Assembly: GCF_000478985.1 (NCBI RefSeq)
Contig: NZ_AWXB01000041.1
Coordinates: 91,976-155,975, forward strand
Direction: 5' to 3'
DNA length: 64,000 nt
DNA from: Peptoniphilus sp. BV3C26
Lineage (GTDB): Bacteria; Bacillota; Clostridia; Tissierellales; Peptoniphilaceae
Positions 3,882 through 15,710 of this stretch are shown here, in pieces. Positions within the stretch are counted from its first letter, which is position 1, and each line of letters begins with the position of its first letter. The translations under genes were made by a program, and so were the position numbers. The notes under the pieces are model-generated. The model was not told the DNA's origin. It ran no database searches and worked only from the letters and a program-made list of their open reading frames with translations.

Positions 3882-5692
3882 ATTTCAATACATCTTATGT
3901 TGTTGTTCAAGTTCTGTTAATCCAAGGTTATACAATTTTACATTCCTATTTCAATACATCTTATGTTGTTGTTCAAGGTGATAGTGAGCTTGATAGCTTT
4001 CACTAAGGCTACACCATTTCAATACATCTTATGTTGTTGTTCAAGTTTAAGGCTTGTAGATACCATAGCGTTTTTAAAATCATTTCAATACATCTTATGT
4101 TGTTGTTCAAGCTGAATATACATTGCCGTCGCTGTCTACTGCTACATTTCAATACATCTTATGTTGTTGTTCAAGGCAGATCCTTTTTTGTCTATAACTT
4201 CTGCAACTATATTTCAATACATCTTATGTTGTTGTTCAAGCCATCTCCATAAATTGACCATCTTTTCCCAAAAAAAATTTCAATACATCTTATGTTGTTG
4301 TTCAAGAAATGCCATGGCAAACGCAACAGTATTAACAGTCGCATTTCAATACATCTTATGTTGTTGTTCAAGCTATGCTACTTTTAATTTTAATGCTCGC
4401 CATCGTAGGATTTCAATACATCTTATGTTGTTGTTCAAGAGAATTGAGGGTAAGAAACTATAAGAGTTTTAACTGATTTCAATACATCTTATGTTGTTGT
4501 TCAAGCTAGAACTAGAAAATATTCAGTTATTCCAAACACATTTCAATACATCTTATGTTGTTGTTCAAGTAGTAGATGCAAGCATAACTTTAACCGCGCT
4601 TGAGTATTTCAATACATCTTATGTTGTTGTTCAAGAATTAAAAGTGATTTTAGTTTAAATCAATTTATCATATTTCAATACATCTTATGTTGTTGTTCAA
4701 GCAACGTGTATATTCATCCACTCCTGTTGTTCCGTAATTTCAATACATCTTATGTTGTTGTTCAAGGAACTCAATTTCTCTACTATTCATAGTCTTCACC
4801 CGATTTCAATACATCTTATGTTGTTGTTCAAGTGCTGCTCCATACAGTCCATCAAAAATTAATCTTCCATTTCAATACATCTTATGTTGTTGTTCAAGAT
4901 TTGATGATTTAAAAATTAATTTACAAGTTGGATCCATATTTCAATACATCTTATGTTGTTGTTCAAGATAGAAGAAAGTGCCAAGATTTTAAAAGCTAAG
5001 TTATTTCAATACATCTTATGTTGTTGTTCAAGCAAAAAAAGAATATCAAGAGGAAGTTGGCAATCGATATTTCAATACATCTTATGTTGTTGTTCAAGAG
5101 ACGTTGTTACAGAGATGGAAATTTACAAAAGGCTATTTCAATACATCTTATGTTGTTGTTCAAGAAAAATTCTTATGATGTTTGGAATAACTTCAGAGTA
5201 ATTTCAATACATCTTATGTTGTTGTTCAAGTTGAACGTCTTCGTATCTTTCAAAAAGCATTCCGTCATTTCAATACATCTTATGTTGTTGTTCAAGAATT
5301 CCGTTACACATCCTTTTTTGTCACTTAGTCCTAATTTCAATACATCTTATGTTGTTGTTCAAGACCAAAATAACCAAGCAGATGTGAGATAATATAAGTG
5401 ATTTCAATACATCTTATGTTGTTGTTCAAGTTTTAAGAGCATATATGTAGAAGTTTACAATCCAGATTTCAATACATCTTATGTTGTTGTTCAAGTTAGG
5501 TAAATATGCTAAAAACAAAAACATCATAATAAATTTCAATACATCTTATGTTGTTGTTCAAGACTTTCTTTTTATGTTTCTTTGGATCTAGTACGTATTT
5601 CAATACATCTTATGTTGTTGTTCAAGCTATTCTTGGTGGTTCTTGTGCCACTACACCTATTGATTTCAATACATCTTATGTTGTTGTTCAAG
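3882..5692 (-). CRISPR. Type I-B CRISPR array, 28 repeats and 27 spacers
   Basis: I count 28 copies of a 30-nt repeat starting at 3882, 3948, 4016, 4082, 4146 and so on to 5663, with no variant noticed by eye. Spacers are 34-39 nt, mostly 36. Plus-strand copies begin ATTTCAATACATC and end TTGTTGTTCAAG. Read on the minus strand the repeat ends in ATTGAAAT, the usual 8-nt 5' handle of type I-B crRNAs, and contains a small ACAT-AAG-ATGT stem-loop just before the handle, a plausible Cas6 site. The array is therefore transcribed on the minus strand, in the same direction as and directly downstream of cas2. The newest spacers should be near 5692. Several spacers read as open protein-coding frames, as expected for phage-derived DNA. 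I saw no spacer matching the phage remnants in this window, but this was only an eye check. Confidence 0.98.
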
Positions 5693-5827: not shown

Positions 5828-6112
5828 TTATATTATATCATCTTTGTCAGTGTCTATTTTATTTGGTTTTCCTATATTTTCTTCTTCAAAATAATTTTTG
5901 CTGTACAATTTTATAAGTGTTACAAAATCCTCTTCTTTAATGATAGCTTTTAATTCTCTTTTTAATGCCATTATTTTTGATGGTGTGATTTCACCTTTAA
6001 AAACTGATTTCTGATGATGGTTTAAATATTTTTTGCAAATTTTAAATATTTTGCCAACTCTTTTTTCTGACACATCATAAAATAAGAAAATATAATTAAA
6101 GTTTTTTGACAT
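5828..6112 (-). CDS. cas2: Cas2
   Basis: Cas2 is the dimeric ferredoxin-fold subunit of the Cas1-Cas2 integrase that inserts new spacers. The protein is 94 aa, typical length. It starts with the first beta strand YIFLFYDVSEKRVGKIFKIC, including the conserved Asp of the YDV motif, and contains NHHQKSVFKGEI, the family's usual QxSVFxGxL segment. Its ATG overlaps the cas1 stop by one base (positions around 6112), so the two are translationally coupled. It is the last gene before the leader and array. Confidence 0.95.
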   Translation of the reverse strand: MSKNFNYIFLFYDVSEKRVGKIFKICKKYLNHHQKSVFKGEITPSKIMALKRELKAIIKEEDFVTLIKLYSKNYFEEENIGKPNKIDTDKDDII

Positions 6113-7110
6113 TAGTATTTGCTCCTTAGAGAAAAAGGAATGAAATTTTCACCTTCTAATATAAATTTTATAAGTTTGTAGCAGTCCAGTTTAATTTGAG
6201 TTCTATAACTTACGTTTCTTTTTAGTTTTTCATTTTTAAATTTGCTCTCTATTCGTTCTTCAAAGGCTTGCAAGAAAATTTTTCTGCCTCCTTCATTAAG
6301 TAGACAATAATTTAAATTAGATTCAAAGTGTTTTTCCACTTTTATTCTTTTGTTGTTTATTAGATCGAATATGGTTTTAAATACTATTACAGGTTTAAAA
6401 ACTTCACATATGTCTAAAGACAAGCTGAATCTGGATTCACTTGGTTCGTGTAAATAACTTATGCTTTGATTTAAATGGGTTCTATATATGGCTGAAATTG
6501 TCTTTGTGTATAAAATTGAGTTGCCAAAAGAAATAAGGGCGTTTATTGGGTTGTCTGGAGGTCTTTTTACTCTTTTGCTCATTACAAAATCTTGATCTAA
6601 AAAATATTTAAAATTCGAATAAAATCTTTGCCACAATTCTCCTTCGTAACTCATAAGTTCAAAGATGTTTTCAGATTTTTCTATTTTTAAAATTAATTCG
6701 TTTTTTATATAGTCTAAAAAAGGTTTCACTTCTTTTTTGTCATGTTTATAGTAATGGTAGACCACTTCATAAATATTTATTAAAATACCTTTTACTATAG
6801 GGATTGCAATTTCCAATCTTTTATTTTTATAAGCTTCAACTTGAGATATTAAAAGTCTTCCACTTATATAGGTATCTCTTGGATAATATGTTCCGCTATA
6901 ATTTCCATAATAGTTAAAAAAGTGTAAAATTACTTGATTTTGCGAAAGAAAATCTAATAATTTCGTATTTATACTTGTTTCATTAAGTAGATAAATTTCT
7001 TTTACATTTTCTATTGGAATATAAATGTTTTTATTATCTTTTCTAAAGCATAGAGAGTTGTCTTTTCTCTTTATCTCTCCTTCTGAAAGAATATATTTTG
7101 TAGTTCCCAT
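6112..7110 (-). CDS. cas1: Cas1 integrase (type I-B)
   Basis: Cas1 is the metal-dependent integrase that joins new spacers at the leader end of the array. The 332-aa length is normal. Visible landmarks are the N-terminal KYILSEGEIKRKDNSLCF beta domain, SYEGELWQRFY with the first metal-binding Glu, LHEPSESRFSLSLDICE with the conserved His, and the following DICEVFKP acidic cluster. It lies seven bases after cas4 and overlaps cas2. Nothing suggests damage. Confidence 0.96.
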   Translation of the reverse strand: MGTTKYILSEGEIKRKDNSLCFRKDNKNIYIPIENVKEIYLLNETSINTKLLDFLSQNQVILHFFNYYGNYSGTYYPRDTYISGRLLISQVEAYKNKRLEIAIPIVKGILINIYEVVYHYYKHDKKEVKPFLDYIKNELILKIEKSENIFELMSYEGELWQRFYSNFKYFLDQDFVMSKRVKRPPDNPINALISFGNSILYTKTISAIYRTHLNQSISYLHEPSESRFSLSLDICEVFKPVIVFKTIFDLINNKRIKVEKHFESNLNYCLLNEGGRKIFLQAFEERIESKFKNEKLKRNVSYRTQIKLDCYKLIKFILEGENFIPFSLRSKY

Positions 7111-7117
7111 AAATCAC

Positions 7118-7603
7118 CTAAATTTTACAATATTCATAATAGGCACATTTACTGCAACCTTTAATTTTTTTAAATTTTGGAATTTCTTTAGATTTTATCA
7201 AAAGCTCAATTTTAGATATTAAATTTAAAATTTCTTTTTCTATATCTTCACTCAGTTCAAAATATTCTATTTTCTTTCCGCAACTATTTTCTACAAATTC
7301 TAATTTACCTTTTCTTTTTATTCCCTTATTTTTTAAAACATATAGATAATAATAAAGTTGCCATTTTGCAGCTTCTTTATCTGCGTCTGATTTTTTGGTT
7401 TCTGTTATATATTTAGATGTAATTTTATCAATTGCTATGTTTTCTATTTTTATTTCTGCATTTTCATCATTGATAGCTTTATCTTCATGAATTTCTCTTC
7501 CTATTTTTACAAGTTCGCTATTATCTTCAAAGTTCAATTTGTTGGCAAATAAATAGCATTGCCTTTTACAATGAAAATAATAATTAATTATTGTTCCATT
7601 CAT
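7118..7603 (-). CDS. cas4: Cas4 Fe-S exonuclease
   Basis: Cas4 is a RecB-type nuclease that trims prespacers and helps select the PAM. The 161-aa protein has the N-terminal Cys in HCKRQCYLF and a C-terminal cluster CSKCAYYEYC (C-x2-C-x5-C), together the four ligands of a 4Fe-4S cluster. The nuclease core is visible as EIKIENIAIDKI and TETKKSDADKEAAKWQLYYY, the latter with the conserved Lys and the QxxxY motif. The start overlaps the cas3 stop (ATGA type). Presence of cas4 supports the I-B assignment. Confidence 0.93.
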   Translation of the reverse strand: MNGTIINYYFHCKRQCYLFANKLNFEDNSELVKIGREIHEDKAINDENAEIKIENIAIDKITSKYITETKKSDADKEAAKWQLYYYLYVLKNKGIKRKGKLEFVENSCGKKIEYFELSEDIEKEILNLISKIELLIKSKEIPKFKKIKGCSKCAYYEYCKI

Positions 7604-10152
7604 AAAAAATCACCGCAAAAATTTAAATTTAAACGTCCATTTTCAAGATAAGCTTCTCCATCTTCTATATAAAATATATTTCCTCTGTGTTCGTTATATT
7701 GTCCAAAATATTTTTCAAATTCCATTTTTGTAACTTTATAAAGAAAATAGGACATGTCTAATTTGAGTTCTGAAAGTTTTACTATTTTTTCACTATAATC
7801 CATTTCATTATTTTCAAGTAGTGAACAATATTCTTTCCAAATTTTTCTTCCATCAATTTTTCTTTCTTCTGTTTTCGATCCATTATTCTCTTTTTTACAT
7901 TTTATTTTTTGAGCTAAAAAAACTTCAATTTTCTCATCATTGTCAATAAGCTTCATATGTTTCGAAATTTTTTCAAATTTATTATTTGTTAAAGCTTCTT
8001 CAAATTCATCGTATGATAGGCTTTCTTTTCTTTCTTTTGATTTTTCAAGTTTAATTTCAAAATAATTTGAAAAATCTTTGTCTAATAAATTTGTTCTTCT
8101 CTCAGGATTTCTTAAAGTCAATTCGTTGTCTATGTGACCATAAATTTTATTTTCATCTGCCATGTCAAAAAAATAAGCTGTTGAATTTTTCTTATGAGCT
8201 GACCTATTTATTCTACCTAAAAACTGCTCTTCATTTTCAAGCTTTGATATGTCCTTGTAGCCGATGTCCATGTCAATATCAACTCCTGCTTCTATAACTT
8301 GAGTTGCAACCAATATTATATTTTTGTCTTTTCCTATTTCTTCTATCACATCATTTTTAGTTTTTAAATTGTCTTGACCTGTTAAAATTAAAATTTCATA
8401 TTCTTTAAAGTTTTCATTTTTGTTTATTTCTTTGTAAAAATCTTCTGCATCTTTTCTCTTTATAAATTCCAATAAAATTTTTTTATGATTTTTTACATGA
8501 TCCTTCATATGATTAATCAAATCTGTATAAAAAATCTTGCCTTTATCTAAAAGTCCATAGTCAAGTCTTACTCTATTTTTAAATAATTTATTTTCAAAAA
8601 ATTTTTTTGGATTTTCAATTAATTTTACAACTTTATTTCTTTCTTTTTCTTCTAAAAGTTTAGATAAGTCTGGTAAAGTTGCAGACATAATTATAATTCT
8701 AAAATTTAAAGTTTCAGCATATGCATCAAGCATTTCAATAATTTCATTCCAAATTTTTTCTTTATAGGCTTGAATTTCATCTAAGACAATTACAGAGTCT
8801 ATAAGTTGGTACAAGCCAAAAATTGATTCTCTATTTGAGCTGAATAATGTATTAAAGAATCCTACGTTTGAAGTGACGATAAATGGTGAATGTAAAAACT
8901 GTCTGTCTAAAAGAGATTTAATATAGTATTCCCATTCTTCCATAAGTTTTTCTTGATATTTATTCCCTATAGGGGAAAGAGAATTTATGACAGCAATATT
9001 ATTTTGAACTTCAGTTCCTTTATAAAATTTATCTAAGGTATTTTTATTTTGCTCTACCAATGTATTAAAAGGATATACATAAAAAATTTTATTAATATTG
9101 CCCTTTAGCATTTTAAAAGATAAATTCATGGCAATATTGCTTTTTCCTGATCCTGTTGGGCTTTCTAAAAAATAAATATTTTTGCCTATTTCGTTTTTGC
9201 TTATTTTTTCAAAGTTTTTTTCTACTTGCAAAAATATTTCCGTTCGCAAATCATTTATTTCTTGCCTTTTTTTATAAGAGCCAGATTTTTCTTTATCTCT
9301 TATGCTTTCTAATAAAGTGGAATTATTATAAATTTTTATTAGTTCATCTTTTTGAAGATTTTCTAATTTTGTTTTAAATCCTTTAATATAATTTGTAGTT
9401 GAATAAAAATCCCCTGCAACTAATAATGAGTACATTAGTTTTACATAAATATAAAAAATTTTATTTTTATCTTTTCTTATCTTATTAAATGATAAGTCAT
9501 CTTCCATTTCATAAAGTAAGTCTAAGATATCTTCTATTTTTTTATCAAAGTCTTCAAAAAATTTATCTTCCAATATTTTTAAATCACTTACCTTTTTTAA
9601 GGCTTTCATAAGGGGTGATTTTTTTTCTAAAAAATTGGATATAAAATTTTTCCCTTCATAAGAAAAATTGTTTAATGGAGAATGATGCCTTGAAATTACA
9701 TAAGAATTAAGAATTATAAAATAAGTTAATAGATACTTTGTTTGTTCATCAATTTTTAAATTATTTATTTTATCTCCATAGTAATAAAAATATATGGCGG
9801 AGGAAACTATTGAATGTTCGCTTTTTATTCCTAAATCAAAAGAAGAGTCATATGTTTTAAAATTATTGTTATTAAGTCTTTCCCATTGAAATTTTCCGTT
9901 AATTTTTCCTATATCATGAAAATCTACAAGACTGTCGGCTAATTCCATAAAGATATTTAGATAGTCATCAGTTTTGAAAAGGACTTTATAAATCCTTTTC
10001 AAAACTGCATTAACATTTTTAAAATCTTTTATTTTTCTATAATATTGTCCACAAAGTTTTGTGTGTTCTTGTAAAGTTTCAAACTCTTTATTTTTACCTC
10101 CTATATGACCGTAATATTTTTCAGAGTTTTTAACTAAATCTTTAATTTCCAT
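7600..10152 (-). CDS. cas3: Cas3 HD nuclease-helicase
   Basis: Cas3 is recruited by target-bound Cascade to nick and degrade DNA. The N-terminal HD nuclease occupies about residues 1-250: LQEHTKLC, DFHDIGKINGKFQWE with the HD pair, KSEHSIV and SRHHSPL. The helicase follows: ESPTGSGKSN (Walker A), VLDEIQAYK (motif II, DEIQ), IIMSATLP (motif III), VATQVIEAGVDIDMDIG (motif V) and QFLGRINRSA (motif VI). Length (850 aa) is normal and no motif is missing. It overlaps cas5 upstream by eleven bases and cas4 downstream by four. Confidence 0.97.
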   Translation of the reverse strand: MEIKDLVKNSEKYYGHIGGKNKEFETLQEHTKLCGQYYRKIKDFKNVNAVLKRIYKVLFKTDDYLNIFMELADSLVDFHDIGKINGKFQWERLNNNNFKTYDSSFDLGIKSEHSIVSSAIYFYYYGDKINNLKIDEQTKYLLTYFIILNSYVISRHHSPLNNFSYEGKNFISNFLEKKSPLMKALKKVSDLKILEDKFFEDFDKKIEDILDLLYEMEDDLSFNKIRKDKNKIFYIYVKLMYSLLVAGDFYSTTNYIKGFKTKLENLQKDELIKIYNNSTLLESIRDKEKSGSYKKRQEINDLRTEIFLQVEKNFEKISKNEIGKNIYFLESPTGSGKSNIAMNLSFKMLKGNINKIFYVYPFNTLVEQNKNTLDKFYKGTEVQNNIAVINSLSPIGNKYQEKLMEEWEYYIKSLLDRQFLHSPFIVTSNVGFFNTLFSSNRESIFGLYQLIDSVIVLDEIQAYKEKIWNEIIEMLDAYAETLNFRIIIMSATLPDLSKLLEEKERNKVVKLIENPKKFFENKLFKNRVRLDYGLLDKGKIFYTDLINHMKDHVKNHKKILLEFIKRKDAEDFYKEINKNENFKEYEILILTGQDNLKTKNDVIEEIGKDKNIILVATQVIEAGVDIDMDIGYKDISKLENEEQFLGRINRSAHKKNSTAYFFDMADENKIYGHIDNELTLRNPERRTNLLDKDFSNYFEIKLEKSKERKESLSYDEFEEALTNNKFEKISKHMKLIDNDEKIEVFLAQKIKCKKENNGSKTEERKIDGRKIWKEYCSLLENNEMDYSEKIVKLSELKLDMSYFLYKVTKMEFEKYFGQYNEHRGNIFYIEDGEAYLENGRLNLNFCGDFL

Positions 10153-10870
10153 AAAGACCTTCTTCTGAATAAAAAACTAAACTTTTATCATTTTCTTTAT
10201 CAAGGTAGGTTATTTCTTCTTCAATTAATTTTTGGTCTGTAAAAATAGTTTTTTCAACGATATATCTATCTGTATCTTTTTCTAATTTAAAAGGCAAAAA
10301 TTCTTGATATCTGAAAGTATTTCGTCCGGATTTAGTTTTAAAATCTCCTTCTAAAAACATAGAATTTATTGAATTTACATTTTCTTTTTTTAAATCTATA
10401 TAAGCTGGGTTTAAAATATCGGCAAAATGATCATTTGTGCCAAGATATGGTATATAGCTAGCTTTATAATTTATTATTCTTTGTGACAATTTTTCAGCTT
10501 CTTCGTTGTCAATTAAAAAATATATTGTCCAGGAAACATCTTCAAGCCAAACTTGCTTTACTATTAAATTTCCTCCTTCTTCTCTTGAGGCAAAAGCTGT
10601 GGAATTATTAAACCTTTGTATTTTTCTATTAAAAATACCGTCATTTGTATTTGGAATAACAGCAATTTTTAAATCCATAAATTTTTTATAGAACTCAGGG
10701 TATTCTTTTCTATTATTTTGTGAATATCCTGAATATCCCATAATCGCTCCAAAAATTCCTAAAAGAGCGATTCTATGAATTTGTCCGTAAGAAAAATATA
10801 AATAGGTATTTACATCAGGTTGTTTAAAAAAGGCTGTTTTTCCCTTTAAATCAAATTTAAAAGCCTTCAT
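10142..10870 (-). CDS. cas5: Cas5 (type I-B Cascade subunit)
   Basis: Cas5 binds the 5' handle of the crRNA at the foot of Cascade. The 242-aa protein starts with AFKFDLKGKTAFFKQPDVNT, the N-terminal Cas5 strand, followed by the helix ALLGIFGAIMGYSGY. A C-terminal EEEITYLDKENDKSLVFY region fits the RAMP fold. Start codon and cas7 stop overlap at 10870. Family assignment rests on these motifs and position between cas7 and cas3. Confidence 0.93.
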   Translation of the reverse strand: MKAFKFDLKGKTAFFKQPDVNTYLYFSYGQIHRIALLGIFGAIMGYSGYSQNNRKEYPEFYKKFMDLKIAVIPNTNDGIFNRKIQRFNNSTAFASREEGGNLIVKQVWLEDVSWTIYFLIDNEEAEKLSQRIINYKASYIPYLGTNDHFADILNPAYIDLKKENVNSINSMFLEGDFKTKSGRNTFRYQEFLPFKLEKDTDRYIVEKTIFTDQKLIEEEITYLDKENDKSLVFYSEEGLYGN

Positions 10871-11832
10871 TATTTAACCTCTATTTTTTCACCTGTGAAG
10901 ATATTATAAAAATCTGCGTTTTTAGGAAAATCAATTAAATCTAAATATTTATCATTGAAGTATATTTCAATTTTCTTTATTTCTCCTCTATTTTCTAAAA
11001 TATTCGAATCTGTGAAATATAATTTGTCTTTTGAATTTTCATCAACTTTTTCAAATCTTATAAGTTCAGCTAAGTTTGGTAAATATAAATCTAAATCCGT
11101 TTCTACAAACATAGCAAATTCATTTTCTGCTCCAACTTTTGAATTGGTAGCAAAACTTGTTGCTGAATCTATGGCTGCTGATTTAAATTTTTTGTAATCT
11201 TCTTCTTCATAACCTTCTGTTACTCCCAATTCTTCATAAGCGTTATAGGCAAGAGGATTTACTACAAAAGAATAATAATAATGAGCTTCTTCTGAAACTA
11301 TTTTTGTCCCAAGAGTTGATGATTTTGCTTCTTCATTATTTTCAGATTTTTCTTTAGCCTTGGGATCTCTAAAAGGTGATAAAATATTTTGTTCACAAAC
11401 TTTTGCTCCTTCATATTTATTTAAACCTTGAGATATTTGGACTGCTCCGGTTATGGATATATTATTTCCGGCTTCTGCAAAAGTTGCTCCGAAATTCTTA
11501 ACATCGATGGCCGAAAAAAGATTTGTCAAGACTTTTTCAGATTCTCCCTTTTTAGAATTAGTAAGCTCAGTTTTAAAAATTTTTTCATATCTTTCTTTTA
11601 AAGTTCTTGGAATTAAAAATCCACTATCTGAAATTAAATAACTTTTTATATATAAAACTTTTTCTCCATTATTTTGCCATTTAACTTTCATTGGATATTT
11701 TAAAGCTTTATCTGATGCAAAAAATTGTCCATTGCTTAAACTTTTCGGATATCCTGTAAAATCTGCATTCCAGTTTGCCATAATTGCTCTAACTCCGCAA
11801 ACTCCATATACTCTATAATTTAACTTACTCAT
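10870..11832 (-). CDS. cas7: Cas7 (type I-B backbone subunit)
   Basis: Cas7 subunits polymerise along the crRNA spacer to form the Cascade backbone. The 320-aa protein begins YRVYGVCGVRAIMANWNADF, continues with a lysine-rich thumb region (EKSENNEEAKSST, about residues 160-175), and has HYYYSFVVNPLAY and an ATSFATNSKVGAENEFAMFV segment typical of the family. GGGG ribosome site eight bases before the ATG. It overlaps the 3' end of cas8b, so if cas8b translation terminates early at its frameshift, coupling to cas7 may suffer. Confidence 0.9.
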   Translation of the reverse strand: MSKLNYRVYGVCGVRAIMANWNADFTGYPKSLSNGQFFASDKALKYPMKVKWQNNGEKVLYIKSYLISDSGFLIPRTLKERYEKIFKTELTNSKKGESEKVLTNLFSAIDVKNFGATFAEAGNNISITGAVQISQGLNKYEGAKVCEQNILSPFRDPKAKEKSENNEEAKSSTLGTKIVSEEAHYYYSFVVNPLAYNAYEELGVTEGYEEEDYKKFKSAAIDSATSFATNSKVGAENEFAMFVETDLDLYLPNLAELIRFEKVDENSKDKLYFTDSNILENRGEIKKIEIYFNDKYLDLIDFPKNADFYNIFTGEKIEVK

Positions 11833-13749
11833 TTATATTCCCCTTTTCTTCAGAATTATTTTTTTTATTATAAATATAAACTTCATCTAAAAAACCACAA
11901 ATTATATACTTATCATCAACTTTTTTTCCCTTGTATTCATAGCTTAAAACTTTGCTGATTAGTCCATTTAAATTTGAATTTTTAATAACTTTTATATTAT
12001 GCCCATATCTAACAATCAGTCTTTTTAACTTTTCTACTATTTTTTTGGGATTATCGTTATCTAAATATTCTCTAATAAAAGTAAGATTTTTATCTCCTAT
12101 ATTACTTTTGTCTAAAAGATATCTTAAAATTTGACCAATTCCGAATAAAAATTCTTCGTCGCTTTCAAATTCAAAATTTCCTCCCGACCTTATTTTTTCT
12201 TTCATATCTTTTTGTAAAGTCATAAACAAACCTCCTATATTTTTTTCAAAATAGTCTTTAAAAGAAAGATAATAATTGAATTGAGCGATGGCCTTATTAA
12301 AATAATTATTAGAAAGTGAATATTTAATAGAATCAAACATTAAGCTGTCCAAATTTTTTTCAAAATATTTTTCTTTTCCGTTTAAAATAAAATTCAAAGC
12401 ATTTTGACCATGATTAATAATGATTAATTTTAAATTTCCATCTTTTATATTTAAATTTTCGAGACTATCTCTGTTTTTATAAAAATAATTATAAAAATAA
12501 ACCCAATCAACATTTTTCATTACGTCTGATCTTTTTGTCATGTAAGAGTATTTACTTTTTTGTTTTTTTATATCATCTTCTTTTGCATCTTTTCCATAAT
12601 TCTCTTTTATATACTCTTTAAAAGTAATATCAATATCAAATAAGTTTTTAGTATATTGTTTATACGATAAAATGGCAGCTTCATTCTTGTCCGGATATAA
12701 GAGAAGTTCATATCCCTTAAAGTCTTCATTTAAATCAAAATCATTTTCTAAAATTTTTTCTCTTTTGATGTCAAAATATACTCTATAAATTTGTCTTCTA
12801 ACAAGGTTATCCAAATAATCAAAAAATGTTTTTTGAATTTCTGCATCTTCCGTACTTATTAAATATGGCTCATTTATTATTCTGTCAAAATTGCTGAGAT
12901 AGGGTTTTTTTCGTTTAGACCCATATTATTATTTGATAAGCCAAAAATTTTCCCGTCAATTTCTTTATTATACTTATTTTTATTAAAAGAGTTGCTTCTT
13001 AGATAACGCTCTTGTTCTCGCTTATATGCTCTTTTTGTTTTTTCTTTATCTTCATATACAAAAAATATTTTAAAATAAGTTTTATTGTCAGGATTTAGGT
13101 TAAATTTATCTAAATTTTTTATCAACCAATTTCTAATTTTTTCTACTTCTTCTGTATTGACAATCCCTAAAATATTCTCATTTTCTTCATATAAGACTTT
13201 TGATTCTTTATCTTTATATTTAGTGTATGGATCTTTTAAAGTATCAAAATACCTTAAAATTGAAGAAAAAAATTTTTTGAATTTTTCAACATCTTCAAAA
13301 TCTAAGCCAGCATAAATTTCTTCTTTAAAAATACTTTTCTCTTCATCGATTTTATCCAAAGAGAATTTTCCCGAATCTAAAAGTTCATAAATTCGGCTTA
13401 AAATAATTTTTGCACTTTCTTCTTTAGGATAAATATTTTCTTTAAAAAAGATACTGTAATAATTGGAGCTTTGTATAAGTTTTTTGAAATCCATACTCTT
13501 ATTGGAATCTAAGATGTTGGAATGGTAATCTAAATACTTTATAAAATCATAATTTAAAGAATTTTCCCCATCAATTATTTTTGTCTTTTTATCATATTTA
13601 ATTGTAAGAGGTTCACTAAGAGCCCAATCTTCATTTTCTTTCATGGTAACTAATATATATTTACCATCCTTTGGCAAGTAGCTTTTTAAAATTAGATTTG
13701 GGTCTTTTTTAAGCTCCTCTTGAAAAATTTCTATGCACTCTTTAATCAC
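11825..13749 (-). pseudogene. cas8b: Cas8b (type I-B large subunit), frameshifted at an A7 tract
   Basis: Cas8b recognises the PAM and recruits Cas3. Translation from ATG 13749 runs through MIKECIEIFQEELKKDP and FDGKIFGL-like sequence (here IDGKIFGLSNNNMGLNEK), then shifts out of frame at seven As (plus-strand T7, 12905-12911) and ends at 12877. Adding one A gives an uninterrupted join to PYLSNFDRIINEPYLISTED and the downstream 329-codon frame starting LDNLVRRQ, with a combined length near 640 aa, the usual size of Cas8b/Csh1. The downstream frame has no start with a ribosome site, so it is not a separate gene. Real mutation, slippage, or a sequencing error are all possible. Family call is from position, size and Csh1-like N-terminus. 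Confidence 0.85.
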
Positions 13750-13751
13750 CG

Positions 13752-14444
13752 TTAACTCCTTTCCATAAGTTTATAGCCTTCAAATCCGAACCCATAAGAA
13801 TTGTTTTCACTAAAAGTAACCCCTAAAGAAAAATATGCAATTTCTTGAGAAAATTTGTCAGGCTTAATGTTAAGTTCAATTTTGTCTCCTAAAAGAGTGA
13901 TATTTTTAAATTTACATGGAATTGGACCTGAATTTAAAAATTTTATACAATCATAAAAATCTTTTTCTTCGATTTCGTTTTTCGTGAAATATTTATATTT
14001 TTTAAAAATATTTTCTTTAATACGTTTCTCAAATTCATCAACACTTAAATTGTTTCTCCAATATCCCTCATCTGATTTTAAAATCAGGCTATTTAAGGTG
14101 TAAATCTTGTCAATTAAATCTTGTTTTATAACTTTAGGTTTAATAAGTAAATTTTTAAAATTATAATTTTTATAATTTTCAAAGCCATTTAACAAATAAT
14201 TTACAAAATCTTTATCTATAGATCTTATTCTAAATTGGCAAAGTTTTTCCTTGACATAAAAATTTTTTATTGGATATAAACTGTCAAAGCAATATGGTTT
14301 ATAATTTTTTTCTTCGTGAAAAGCTAAAAATTTTTCATTTAAAGCTAAATATCCATTGATAAGCTTCGCTAATTCTTTTTGTACATCCTCCTTTTTTAAA
14401 TCTTCTAACAAAAATGTCTTTACGTTTAATTCATAAACTTTCAA
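13752..14444 (-). CDS. cas6: Cas6 crRNA endoribonuclease
   Basis: Cas6 cuts the precursor crRNA within each repeat, leaving the 8-nt handle ATTGAAAT. The 230-aa protein ends with the glycine-rich loop SLGVTFSENNSYGFGFEG, the signature of the family; YWRNNLSVDEFEKRI and the PIPCKFKNITL segment fit the second RAMP domain. The start is a TTG at 14444, seven bases after a strong GGAGG. It is the first gene of the cas operon and is followed two bases later by cas8b. The promoter lies about 45-70 bases upstream and overlaps the proposed CreR target. Confidence 0.92.
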   Translation of the reverse strand: MKVYELNVKTFLLEDLKKEDVQKELAKLINGYLALNEKFLAFHEEKNYKPYCFDSLYPIKNFYVKEKLCQFRIRSIDKDFVNYLLNGFENYKNYNFKNLLIKPKVIKQDLIDKIYTLNSLILKSDEGYWRNNLSVDEFEKRIKENIFKKYKYFTKNEIEEKDFYDCIKFLNSGPIPCKFKNITLLGDKIELNIKPDKFSQEIAYFSLGVTFSENNSYGFGFEGYKLMERS

Positions 14445-14463
14445 ATAATCACCTCCATATAAT

Positions 14464-14477
14464 TATCATTTGCTTGA
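14464..14477 (-). promoter_or_regulatory. Proposed CreR-Cascade binding site in the cas leader (PAM TCA + seed)
   Basis: On the minus strand the bases 14477-14475 read TCA, a PAM accepted by several clostridial type I-B systems, and are followed at 14474-14464 by AGCAAATGATA. These 11 bases are identical to the first 11 bases of the pseudo-spacer of the mini-array at 14531-14616. After one mismatch three more positions (TTA) match, and then pairing is lost. The site lies between the predicted transcription start (about 14481) and the cas6 ribosome site. Direct sequence match; function inferred. Confidence 0.7.
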
Positions 14478-14487
14478 TTACAAATTA

Positions 14488-14516
14488 ATAATAAAACTTT
14501 TTATATTAAATTACAA
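14488..14516 (-). promoter_or_regulatory. Promoter of the cas operon
   Basis: Read on the minus strand: -35 TTGTAA (14516-14511), a 17-base spacer, and -10 TATTAT (14493-14488). Predicted start about 14481. This is the best sigma-70-type match between the mini-array and cas6. Confidence 0.7.
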
Positions 14517-14530
14517 GCACATTTTTAAAA

Positions 14531-14617
14531 AATTTTTTACATCTCATGTTGGCGTTCAAATTAGAATTAACTAAATATCATTTGCTATTTCAATACATCT
14601 TATGTTTTTGTTCAATT
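14531..14617 (-). ncRNA. creR: Degenerate CRISPR mini-array, proposed CreR-type cas-regulating RNA
   Basis: Two degenerate copies of the array repeat flank a 26-nt pseudo-spacer. On the minus strand the first copy (14616-14587) matches 28/30 bases and keeps the 3' handle ATTGAAAT intact. The second (14560-14531) matches 22/30; it keeps the ACAT-NAG-ATGT stem needed for Cas6 cleavage, but four of its eight changes fall in the handle part, which the upstream RNA does not need. The pseudo-spacer (14586-14561) is shorter than the 34-39 nt spacers of the real array. A TATAAT promoter places the start at the first base of the first repeat, and six Ts follow the second. The first 11 pseudo-spacer bases match the cas leader next to a TCA PAM. 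This is the known layout of CreR guides that let Cascade repress its own operon. Assignment is inferred from sequence only. Confidence 0.75.
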
Positions 14618-14624
14618 TAATCCT

Positions 14625-14655
14625 ATTATAAACTATTTTTATAAATTTATAGCAA
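14625..14655 (-). promoter_or_regulatory. Promoter of the mini-array RNA
   Basis: On the minus strand a perfect -10 TATAAT occupies 14630-14625 and a -35-like TTGCTA occupies 14655-14650, with a rather long 19-base spacer. Start point expected at about 14618-14617, exactly where the first degenerate repeat begins. Confidence 0.6.
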
Positions 14656-14678: not shown

Positions 14679-15710
14679 TTAAATTTCAAATTTTTTAGGG
14701 CAATTAAATGATATAGTGTGGAAAGGAATTGCCATTTTGAAATTATTGTTTTCAAGAATTTCTCTATATTGATTGAAATTTAAGTGTGTTGGAACAATTA
14801 CTTGAGACATTTTATTTTTATTTAAAAGTTTCATGGCCTTCGATTTTTTTTCCAATGTTCCTGTAGAAATTCCTCTTCCACCATTTTCAATTATTTTTAT
14901 TGCTGTTTTATAGCTTTCTTTATTTTCTAATTGTGGGTCTTGTAAAAATATAAAGCCTTTCATTTTATTTTTAATGGGAAAAAGGTCTAATTTTACTTTT
15001 TCATTTTGCCAAAAGTTGTTAAATCCACAAGAGAATGCTTTTCTTATTTTTTTATCTCCATAAATTTTATAGTCAAAATTTTCTTCAAGAATTTTTAAAA
15101 TTTCAAGTCCTCTTCCATATTCAGGGACTGGAAAAAATATTTTATCTGTAATTTTTAAATATTCTTTTATTTTTTTTATTAATTTTTCTTTTTGTTTTTC
15201 AAAACTATTTTCGTTAAATCCATAAGCTGCATCAATTATTGCAAAATCGGCTTTTTGATCTTCTATTAGGTCATATTTATAGACTTTTGTTTGAAAGTTT
15301 ACATCTCCTGAATAAAAAATCTTTTTATTTTCAAATTCCAAATTAAAATATACCGCCCCTTTGGCATGGCCACTTCTTCCCCACTGGATTTTCATGCCGT
15401 CAACTTTTTCATCTATGTCTTCAAGATATATTGTAGGATAAACTTTTTTAAGCATTTTAAAAGTTTCATAGCTTGTTATAAGCGTACAGTTTCTATTATT
15501 TTGAAAAATTAAATCTAAAGCTCCGCTGTGATCTTTATGAATGTGGGATAAAAAAACATATTTAATTTTTTTTATCTCTTTTTTACTTAAATCAGGCAAT
15601 AAGGTTTTATTTTTTATGCCTGCATCAAATAAAATTGAAAATTTTTCACCTTCAAAGTAAAAAGAATTTCTTCCGTGTTCTCCCACTCCTCCTGCAATTT
15701 TAAATTTCAT
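14679..15710 (-). CDS. MBL-fold metallo-hydrolase (RNase J/exonuclease-like)
   Basis: The 343-aa protein has the metallo-beta-lactamase motif FLSHIHKDHSGA (HxHxDH, about residues 54-65), an earlier LFDAG strand, a later GRSGHAKGAVYF His and a YSGDVNF Asp, so two metal ions can be bound. The C-terminal region VPTHLNF and IPFHTISF resembles the beta-CASP-type nucleases loosely (final His motif), but I see no full beta-CASP domain with certainty. Substrate unknown. The start overlaps the ABC permease stop by four bases, so it is the fourth gene of the transporter operon. No obvious terminator separates it from the CRISPR mini-array downstream, so read-through into the cas region is possible. Confidence 0.8.
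   Translation of the reverse strand: MKFKIAGGVGEHGRNSFYFEGEKFSILFDAGIKNKTLLPDLSKKEIKKIKYVFLSHIHKDHSGALDLIFQNNRNCTLITSYETFKMLKKVYPTIYLEDIDEKVDGMKIQWGRSGHAKGAVYFNLEFENKKIFYSGDVNFQTKVYKYDLIEDQKADFAIIDAAYGFNENSFEKQKEKLIKKIKEYLKITDKIFFPVPEYGRGLEILKILEENFDYKIYGDKKIRKAFSCGFNNFWQNEKVKLDLFPIKNKMKGFIFLQDPQLENKESYKTAIKIIENGGRGISTGTLEKKSKAMKLLNKNKMSQVIVPTHLNFNQYREILENNNFKMAIPFHTISFNCPKKFEI

Follow-up and report, generated by a model that had tools for sequence, protein, structure and literature searches.

A candidate CreR-type guide RNA upstream of the type I-B cas operon in Peptoniphilus and related clostridia

CreR RNAs are reportedly the subject of Liu et al. (Cell Host Microbe 2023), whose abstract is said to name types I-B, I-E and V-A. 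In the accessible text of the papers that treat it, CreR (cas-regulating RNA) is a mini-CRISPR unit whose crRNA-like guide is directed to the cognate cas promoter, generally toxin-free and found in type I systems (PMC12737573, PMC12948488). A second described system is CreTA of the haloarchaea, with its guide CreA. For CreA of H. hubeiense, the accessible part of PMC8501985 reports that mutation of guide positions 6 or 12 had no effect and that mutation of other seed positions did. Here we argue that a two-repeat mini-array at 14531-14616, just upstream of cas6 in the window, a 64,000-nt stretch of DNA from Peptoniphilus sp. BV3C26, very probably encodes a guide RNA of the CreR type that would steer type I-B Cascade to the cas6 leader and repress the cas operon.

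The operon lies on the minus strand, as do the two arrays, the predicted promoters and the target described below, and its order, cas6-cas8b-cas7-cas5-cas3-cas4-cas1-cas2 followed by an array, is that of type I-B, with cas8b broken in the assembly. The first gene, cas6 (13752..14444), opens with a TTG start behind a GGAGGTG ribosome site and matches the PADLOC Cas6b model (E 2e-78); the NCBIfam cas6 model scores below its cut-off on the same interval. It is followed by cas8b in two pieces (Cas8b model), the first (12877..13749) in a frame that ends early and the second (11825..12814) in a different frame, and then by cas7 (10870..11832, Cas7b model), a type I-B cas5 (10142..10870, Cas5b model), cas3 (7600..10152), cas4 (7118..7603), a type I-B cas1 (6112..7110, Cas1b model) and cas2 (5828..6112). 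The main CRISPR array (3882..5692) has 28 repeats of 30 nt and 27 spacers. Beside the operon, at 14679-15710, the window encodes a metallo-beta-lactamase-fold protein whose beta-CASP/RNase-like matches fall below curated cut-offs.

The first degenerate repeat of the mini-array (14587..14616) agrees with the array repeat at 28 of 30 positions and carries an intact 8-nt handle, ATTGAAAT, at 14594-14587; the second (14531..14560) agrees at 22 of 30, retaining the stem ACAT-GAG-ATGT and lacking the handle. Between them we read a 26-nt guide, or pseudo-spacer, AGCAAATGATATTTAGTTAATTCTAA (14561..14586), shorter than any of the 27 spacers in the main array, which measure 34-39 nt. This anatomy had been put forward in the initial annotation of the locus, and recomputation returned the same values. 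If Cas6 were to cleave at its usual place in both repeats, the mature RNA predicted from the repeat layout would occupy 14539..14594 and measure about 56 nt, made up of the 8-nt handle, the 26-nt guide and a 22-nt 3' handle; a two-handle form is reported for H. hubeiense CreA in the accessible part of PMC8501985. The predicted -10 of the unit's own promoter is a TATAAT (14625..14630) that ends 8 nt 5' of repeat 1, so that the predicted start is the first repeat base or one adjacent, much as first annotated; this TATAAT has no good -35 and is absent from the list returned by the promoter scan. Rfam CRISPR-DR3 matches repeat 1 below its gathering score (36.8 vs 41, E 0.005) and on the plus strand, opposite to the minus-strand reading adopted here; it is the sole Rfam CRISPR match in the mini-array, repeat 2 having none. 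A snoRNA match in Rfam (E 0.8) was dismissed as chance, and folding of the mini-array RNA, no better than that of shuffled sequences (z +1.2), is uninformative.

The site that the guide would recognize lies in the cas6 leader at 14460..14474, where guide positions 1-11 and 13-15 are identical, that is, 14 of the first 15 positions, with the single mismatch at position 12. Position 12 of the guide is a base left unpaired in Cascade. The initial annotation had placed an 11-nt seed match at 14474-14464 after TCA, with pairing lost after about 15 nt; the site and the later breakdown both hold, as do its 11 matching positions, and only the extent needs correction, position 12 being a permitted mismatch beyond which 13-15 pair again. 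When the 117-nt leader was shuffled 20,000 times with its dinucleotides preserved, TCA together with the ten seed positions (1-5 and 7-11) never arose, and the ten seed positions after any triplet arose in 18 shuffles. A search of the 1.93-Mb draft genome for TCA followed by AGCAANTGATA gives a single site, the cas6-leader target, and as a control none of the 27 main-array spacers gets beyond 6 of the 10 seed positions beside TCA in the leader. The TCA itself (14475..14477) is likely the PAM of the target, an assignment based on the co-variation described below and on the precedent of the C. pasteurianum type I-B system, for which the accessible text of PMC4860712 gives TCA and also TCT. A search for the PAM in 50,697 phage records, made with the array plus short flanks, returned weak matches alone (10 records, E 0.6), and when 4 of the 27 spacers were taken as 22-nt pieces, none had an exact match in viral contigs. 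The predicted cas promoter, TTGTAA-17-TATTAT (14488..14516), comes from the promoter scan and is weak by itself, its score of 9/12 being about what chance gives in an A+T-rich stretch (5 sites on both strands; shuffle mean 3.5). The target begins 14 nt beyond the -10 of this promoter and thus sits between it and the cas6 ribosome site.

The layout of the leader bears directly on whether the unit could instead be a CreA antitoxin. Such an antitoxin would guide Cascade to the promoter of creT, a tiny gene for a toxin RNA, and so make the cell dependent on Cascade. CreA and CreR are anatomically alike, and creT genes are described in the accessible part of PMC8501985 as tiny and poorly conserved, but only 15 nt separate the end of the 15-nt target (14460) from the cas6 start codon (14444), and this gap holds the cas6 ribosome site, which leaves no space for creT. 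In the six matched units of the family, the target starts 30-43 nt before cas6. We therefore consider an antitoxin very unlikely; the separation from CreTA that was first drawn on the lack of a toxin gene stands, since the targeted leader runs straight into cas6.

The CreR reading draws directly on the sequence for the unit itself, its match beside a TCA, their place next to the start of cas6 and the co-variation of guide and target in relatives, and on this basis we propose the following steps. The mini-array would be transcribed from the TATAAT, and the transcript would be cut by Cas6 at both repeats and loaded into Cascade, which would bind the template strand over about 15 bases just past the predicted start and block RNA polymerase. 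Since guide and cas mRNA have the same sense, the guide could pair with the template DNA strand only and never with the mRNA. Because pairing ends after about 15 bases, Cas3 would probably go unlicensed and the site uncut. If Cascade became scarce, or crRNAs competed for it, then the operon would be released.

We surveyed the DNA upstream of cas6 in related genomes. The gene was found in 8 of 130 genomes of the family, in 22 of 249 of the order (those 8 included) and in 27 of 391 of the class (the window's own included; 29 loci beyond the earlier ones), and of 11 named contigs found, 4 more were added. The seven family loci other than the window's belong to Anaerococcus and Peptoniphilus. Of the 54 upstream regions entered, the 51 with at least 600 nt were counted, and 3 with less (L063, L065, L075) were dropped; two loci whose cas6 lies at the edge of a contig (L030, L032), and a match from the class that came without a locus, never entered. 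Duplicates (L017, the same as L009, and L040-L046, the same as L010-L016) were not counted. L049 and L056, apparently one contig of 6,764 bases, were both kept among the 51, neither being a match, and L066, which has stops inside cas6, was also kept. A strict match was defined as a handle-like 8-mer with a guide behind it that agrees at each of positions 1-5 and 7-11 with a TCA-flanked site on the same strand; the register thus tested skips positions 6, 12 and 18, and five shifted registers served as controls. The seed positions and the TCA were chosen after by-eye reading of the family and order loci and were fixed before the 26 class-level regions, which were not read by eye, were scored.

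In the true register, strict matches occur in 15 of the 51 regions, against 1, 1, 1, 1 and 2 in the control registers, at a 10/10 cut-off that was applied only after earlier scores, those of the class regions included, had been looked at. By set, these are 6 of 8 regions in the family, 4 of 13 in the order, 1 of 4 named contigs and 4 of 26 in the class, the last four (L053, L054, L057, L059) being accompanied by none in the other registers with TCA. When any preceding triplet is allowed, 10/10 pairs follow TCA in 15 regions and any other triplet in at most 2 (TCA background 1.3%). A chance match between A+T-rich stretches is thus an explanation to which we give next to no credence: the region is indeed A+T-rich, and control registers with any triplet reach 6-8 of 51 regions, but once TCA is required they fall to the counts just given, the shuffles of the window's leader yield nothing and there is one site per genome. 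A strict match is absent in 36 of the 51 regions, among them L029 and L031, where the upstream DNA appears by eye to be coding.

The 15 strict units have 13 distinct 17-nt guide starts. Of their 15 pairs, 12 are mismatched at position 6 and 8 at position 12, which is what two bases that take no part in pairing should show. This repeated geometry weighs on another possible origin, an ordinary self-targeting spacer taken from the cas leader and used for interference or priming. Such a spacer would account for a guide that matches host DNA beside a PAM functional in clostridia (PMC4860712, accessible text), but the match ends at about 15 nt, the cell would not survive full interference and the identical partial geometry recurs among guides with those 13 different starts; we regard this origin as highly improbable.

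Several lesser candidates fall outside the strict set. With targets on the opposite strand, the true register gives 2 of 51 regions (L055, L058) and the other registers 1, 2, 0, 0 and 0, low counts that place the signal on the cas sense strand. The match in L058 was set aside because it overlaps itself; L055 is a plausible CreR with an opposite-strand target, identical at 16 of 17 positions with position 6 alone mismatched and flanked by TCA. Looser pairs in L020 and L027 (9/10 seed positions, TCA) were left out of the 15 and are weak, since exchanging guides and leaders between loci (see below) also gives 9/10 in 3 of 380 foreign swaps. L023, with 10/10 seed positions flanked by TCT, is likewise outside the 15, and a 10/10 pair after GCA in L014, 345 nt upstream of cas6, was rejected on the chance rate for any triplet.

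The guides fit their own leaders and not foreign ones. Setting 20 guides against 20 leaders, with hand-chosen guide starts for L014 and L015 and a hand-chosen leader cut for L020, we found 10/10 agreement with the own leader in 15 of 20 cases. Of 380 foreign swaps, 4 also reached 10/10, and every one of these paired near-identical Anaerococcus units (L010 with L011, L012 with L013). At their first two bases, guide and target both read GT in L010 and L011 and both read AC in L012 and L013. These comparisons suggest that guide and target evolve together. Co-variation in related genomes had been named in the initial annotation as a check on its CreR reading, and both the register counts and the own-leader matching in relatives come out in favor of that reading.

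Within the family, mini-array and own-leader match are both present in 6 of the 8 cas6 loci, the window included, and the guides differ. In these six matched units, repeat 1 agrees with the array repeat at 22-28 of 30 positions and has 4/4 stem pairs, and in the five matched relatives repeats 1 and 2 differ by 1 or 2 of 30. The remaining two loci, L014 (A. obesiensis) and L015 (A. hydrogenalis), have no good TCA-flanked match, L014 reaching 5/10 and the leader of L015 having no TCA. Relatives that kept the mini-array and lost the seed match would, by the initial annotation, speak against a CreR; in both loci, repeat 1 is degraded, to 12/30 with 1/4 stem pairs in L014, where the repeat 2 stem is retained, and to 6/30 with 2/4 stem pairs in L015, identities that were computed ungapped and that an offset would lower, the L015 guide start being a guess. 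The unit is therefore not kept where the match is lost, and guide unit and target seem, by their sequences, to decay together. The two loci do count against a universal unit, L014 being the more difficult of them; the cas genes of A. obesiensis are open at their usual lengths. In A. hydrogenalis (L038), cas3 lies in two frames, and in A. vaginalis ATCC 51170 (L036), the cas4 frame has 101 codons compared with 164-168 in six other family relatives.

The repeats of the matched units share further features. A paired second stem is present in 14 of the 15 strict units, none of them with an intact handle after it, and L047 (Clostridium homopropionicum) has no trusted second stem. The 5' handle of the predicted RNA in L016 (Peptoniphilus ovalis MSJ-1) and L010 (Anaerococcus jeddahensis SB3) would be ATTGAAAT or ATTTAAAT. 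In the repeat 1 stem, scored over 17 of 20 units (L013, whose repeat is identical to that of L010, L015 and L023 were omitted), 87.9% of cells are paired and 5 have both sides changed, a count that averages 1.1 in shuffles and that none of 500 shuffles reaches. These 5 derive from two lineages, ACAT/ATGT having become ACTT/AAGT in Anaerococcus and ACGA/TCGT in L053. The covariation score is highest in the true register (0.263), with a slide of the stem partner by -3 near it (0.228); that slide has more both-sided cells (6 vs 5, in 3 pairs vs 2) but only 47% of cells paired vs 88%. We give stem co-variation little weight relative to the seed.

A second correction to the initial annotation concerns Cascade in this genome. 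The Cascade genes cas6, cas7 and cas5 are open, and cas8b lies in two overlapping frames with the shift within 12880-12925; the 7 family relatives have a single open cas8b frame of some 600 codons. Cascade may thus be incomplete or fail to assemble here, and the circuit may be dead in this strain. The Cascade large subunit, the product of cas8b, reads the PAM. The split may be a real loss or an assembly error, being a single frameshift in a 69-contig draft. If it is real, the large subunit would be lost and the circuit inoperative in this strain, and the intact seed would point to a recent loss; if it is an assembly error, the CreR reading is unaffected. The break also gives some room to a decayed relic, either a once-active CreR or the remnant of an old array, dead here through the cas8b frameshift. 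Besides the two frames of cas8b, the 22/30 identity of repeat 2 would fit this, as would the lost match in two Anaerococcus relatives, one of them also with cas3 in two frames. On the other side, seed, TCA, handle and both stems are intact here and would not persist long without selection, loss of the repeat 2 handle with the stem kept is the rule among strict units (14 of 15) and the lone frameshift may be a sequencing error. We judge a relic unlikely, and as its first form accepts CreR and so overlaps with our preferred explanation, the likelihoods that we attach to the different readings do not add to one.

Some loci depart from the arrangement in the window. In L018 (within L081), the CreR-like unit is terminal in an array that points to cas6, where a cluster of six repeats stands behind one of twelve and repeat 1 of the unit is the sixth of the six, and in L021 (within L082), such a unit ends a short array behind two further repeats, one of them disrupted. 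The L020 unit is found in the last 130 nt upstream of cas6, on the cas6 side of the cas promoter and downstream of its own possible target (9/10, TCA), so that it would repress itself too. In L057 and L059, a small gene for a winged helix-turn-helix protein (HTH_11/Rrf2-like; 66 and 86 aa) stands between the target and cas6. We found no counterpart in the accessible part of the CreR literature to units at the end of an array (L018, L021), downstream of the target and ahead of cas6 (L020, a weak case) or directed at an operon that opens with a small helix-turn-helix gene (L057, L059). To judge by its sequence, the L018 unit at the end of a longer array looks like a variant of CreR. Much more tentatively, and as a conjecture that we think somewhat doubtful, CreR self-repression may have long served as a general control of clostridial type I-B systems, maintained by continual guide-leader co-evolution in the six-base register of Cascade and arising from domestication of the last, leader-distal spacer (L018; the short array of L021), where it would be made in step with the crRNAs. 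If so, then the circuit in loci of the L018/L021 type would read the supply of Cascade and not the ratio of crRNA to CreR.

If the CreR reading is right, then CRISPR guide-RNA self-control would extend to the anaerobic cocci (Anaerococcus, Peptoniphilus) and to further clostridia, and the 13 distinct guide starts would share one geometry. Self-repression of cas would be predictable purely from sequence, through a handle, a TCA and ten seed positions, the pairs would offer a natural footprint of Cascade's unpaired sixth bases, and the flanking triplet would serve as a pointer to the PAM in systems where the PAM is unknown.

Among the known systems, the scaRNA of Francisella novicida, which works with Cas9, is similar in that an RNA with a degenerate repeat represses transcription through partial pairing, and it differs in having a type II effector and a lipoprotein operon as its target rather than cas genes (PMC9458426, accessible text). 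Haloarchaeal CreTA is closer: in the accessible parts of PMC8501985 and PMC9458426, CreA has two degenerated repeats, pairs through positions 1-5 and 7-11 with 6 and 12 free and acts with a type I-B Cascade. The seed pairing beside a PAM found here is the same, which speaks for shared working and not for membership, since CreTA has a toxin RNA gene under the targeted promoter and the leader targeted here is that of cas6 itself, into which it runs directly with no toxin space. The PAM is TTC in haloarchaeal CreTA, going by the same accessible text, compared with TCA here, and the more diverged repeat is the first in CreTA and the second in the window (22/30 vs 28/30). With CreR, the unit has in common a mini-CRISPR form, a crRNA-like guide aimed at the cognate cas promoter, the lack of a toxin gene and a type I host; the window accordingly holds a degenerate-repeat unit by the cas operon, a PAM-flanked partial match in the leader and no toxin gene. 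It differs in its hosts (Peptoniphilaceae and other clostridia), in a TCA site placed in the leader just past the predicted start, in the L018 unit that ends a longer array and in being known here from sequence alone. Among the matches listed in a literature search that left most subscription journals outside its range, we found no report of CreR in Peptoniphilaceae or Anaerococcus. The unit in this lineage most likely works as the CreR class does and is a further member of that class, which is itself already known.
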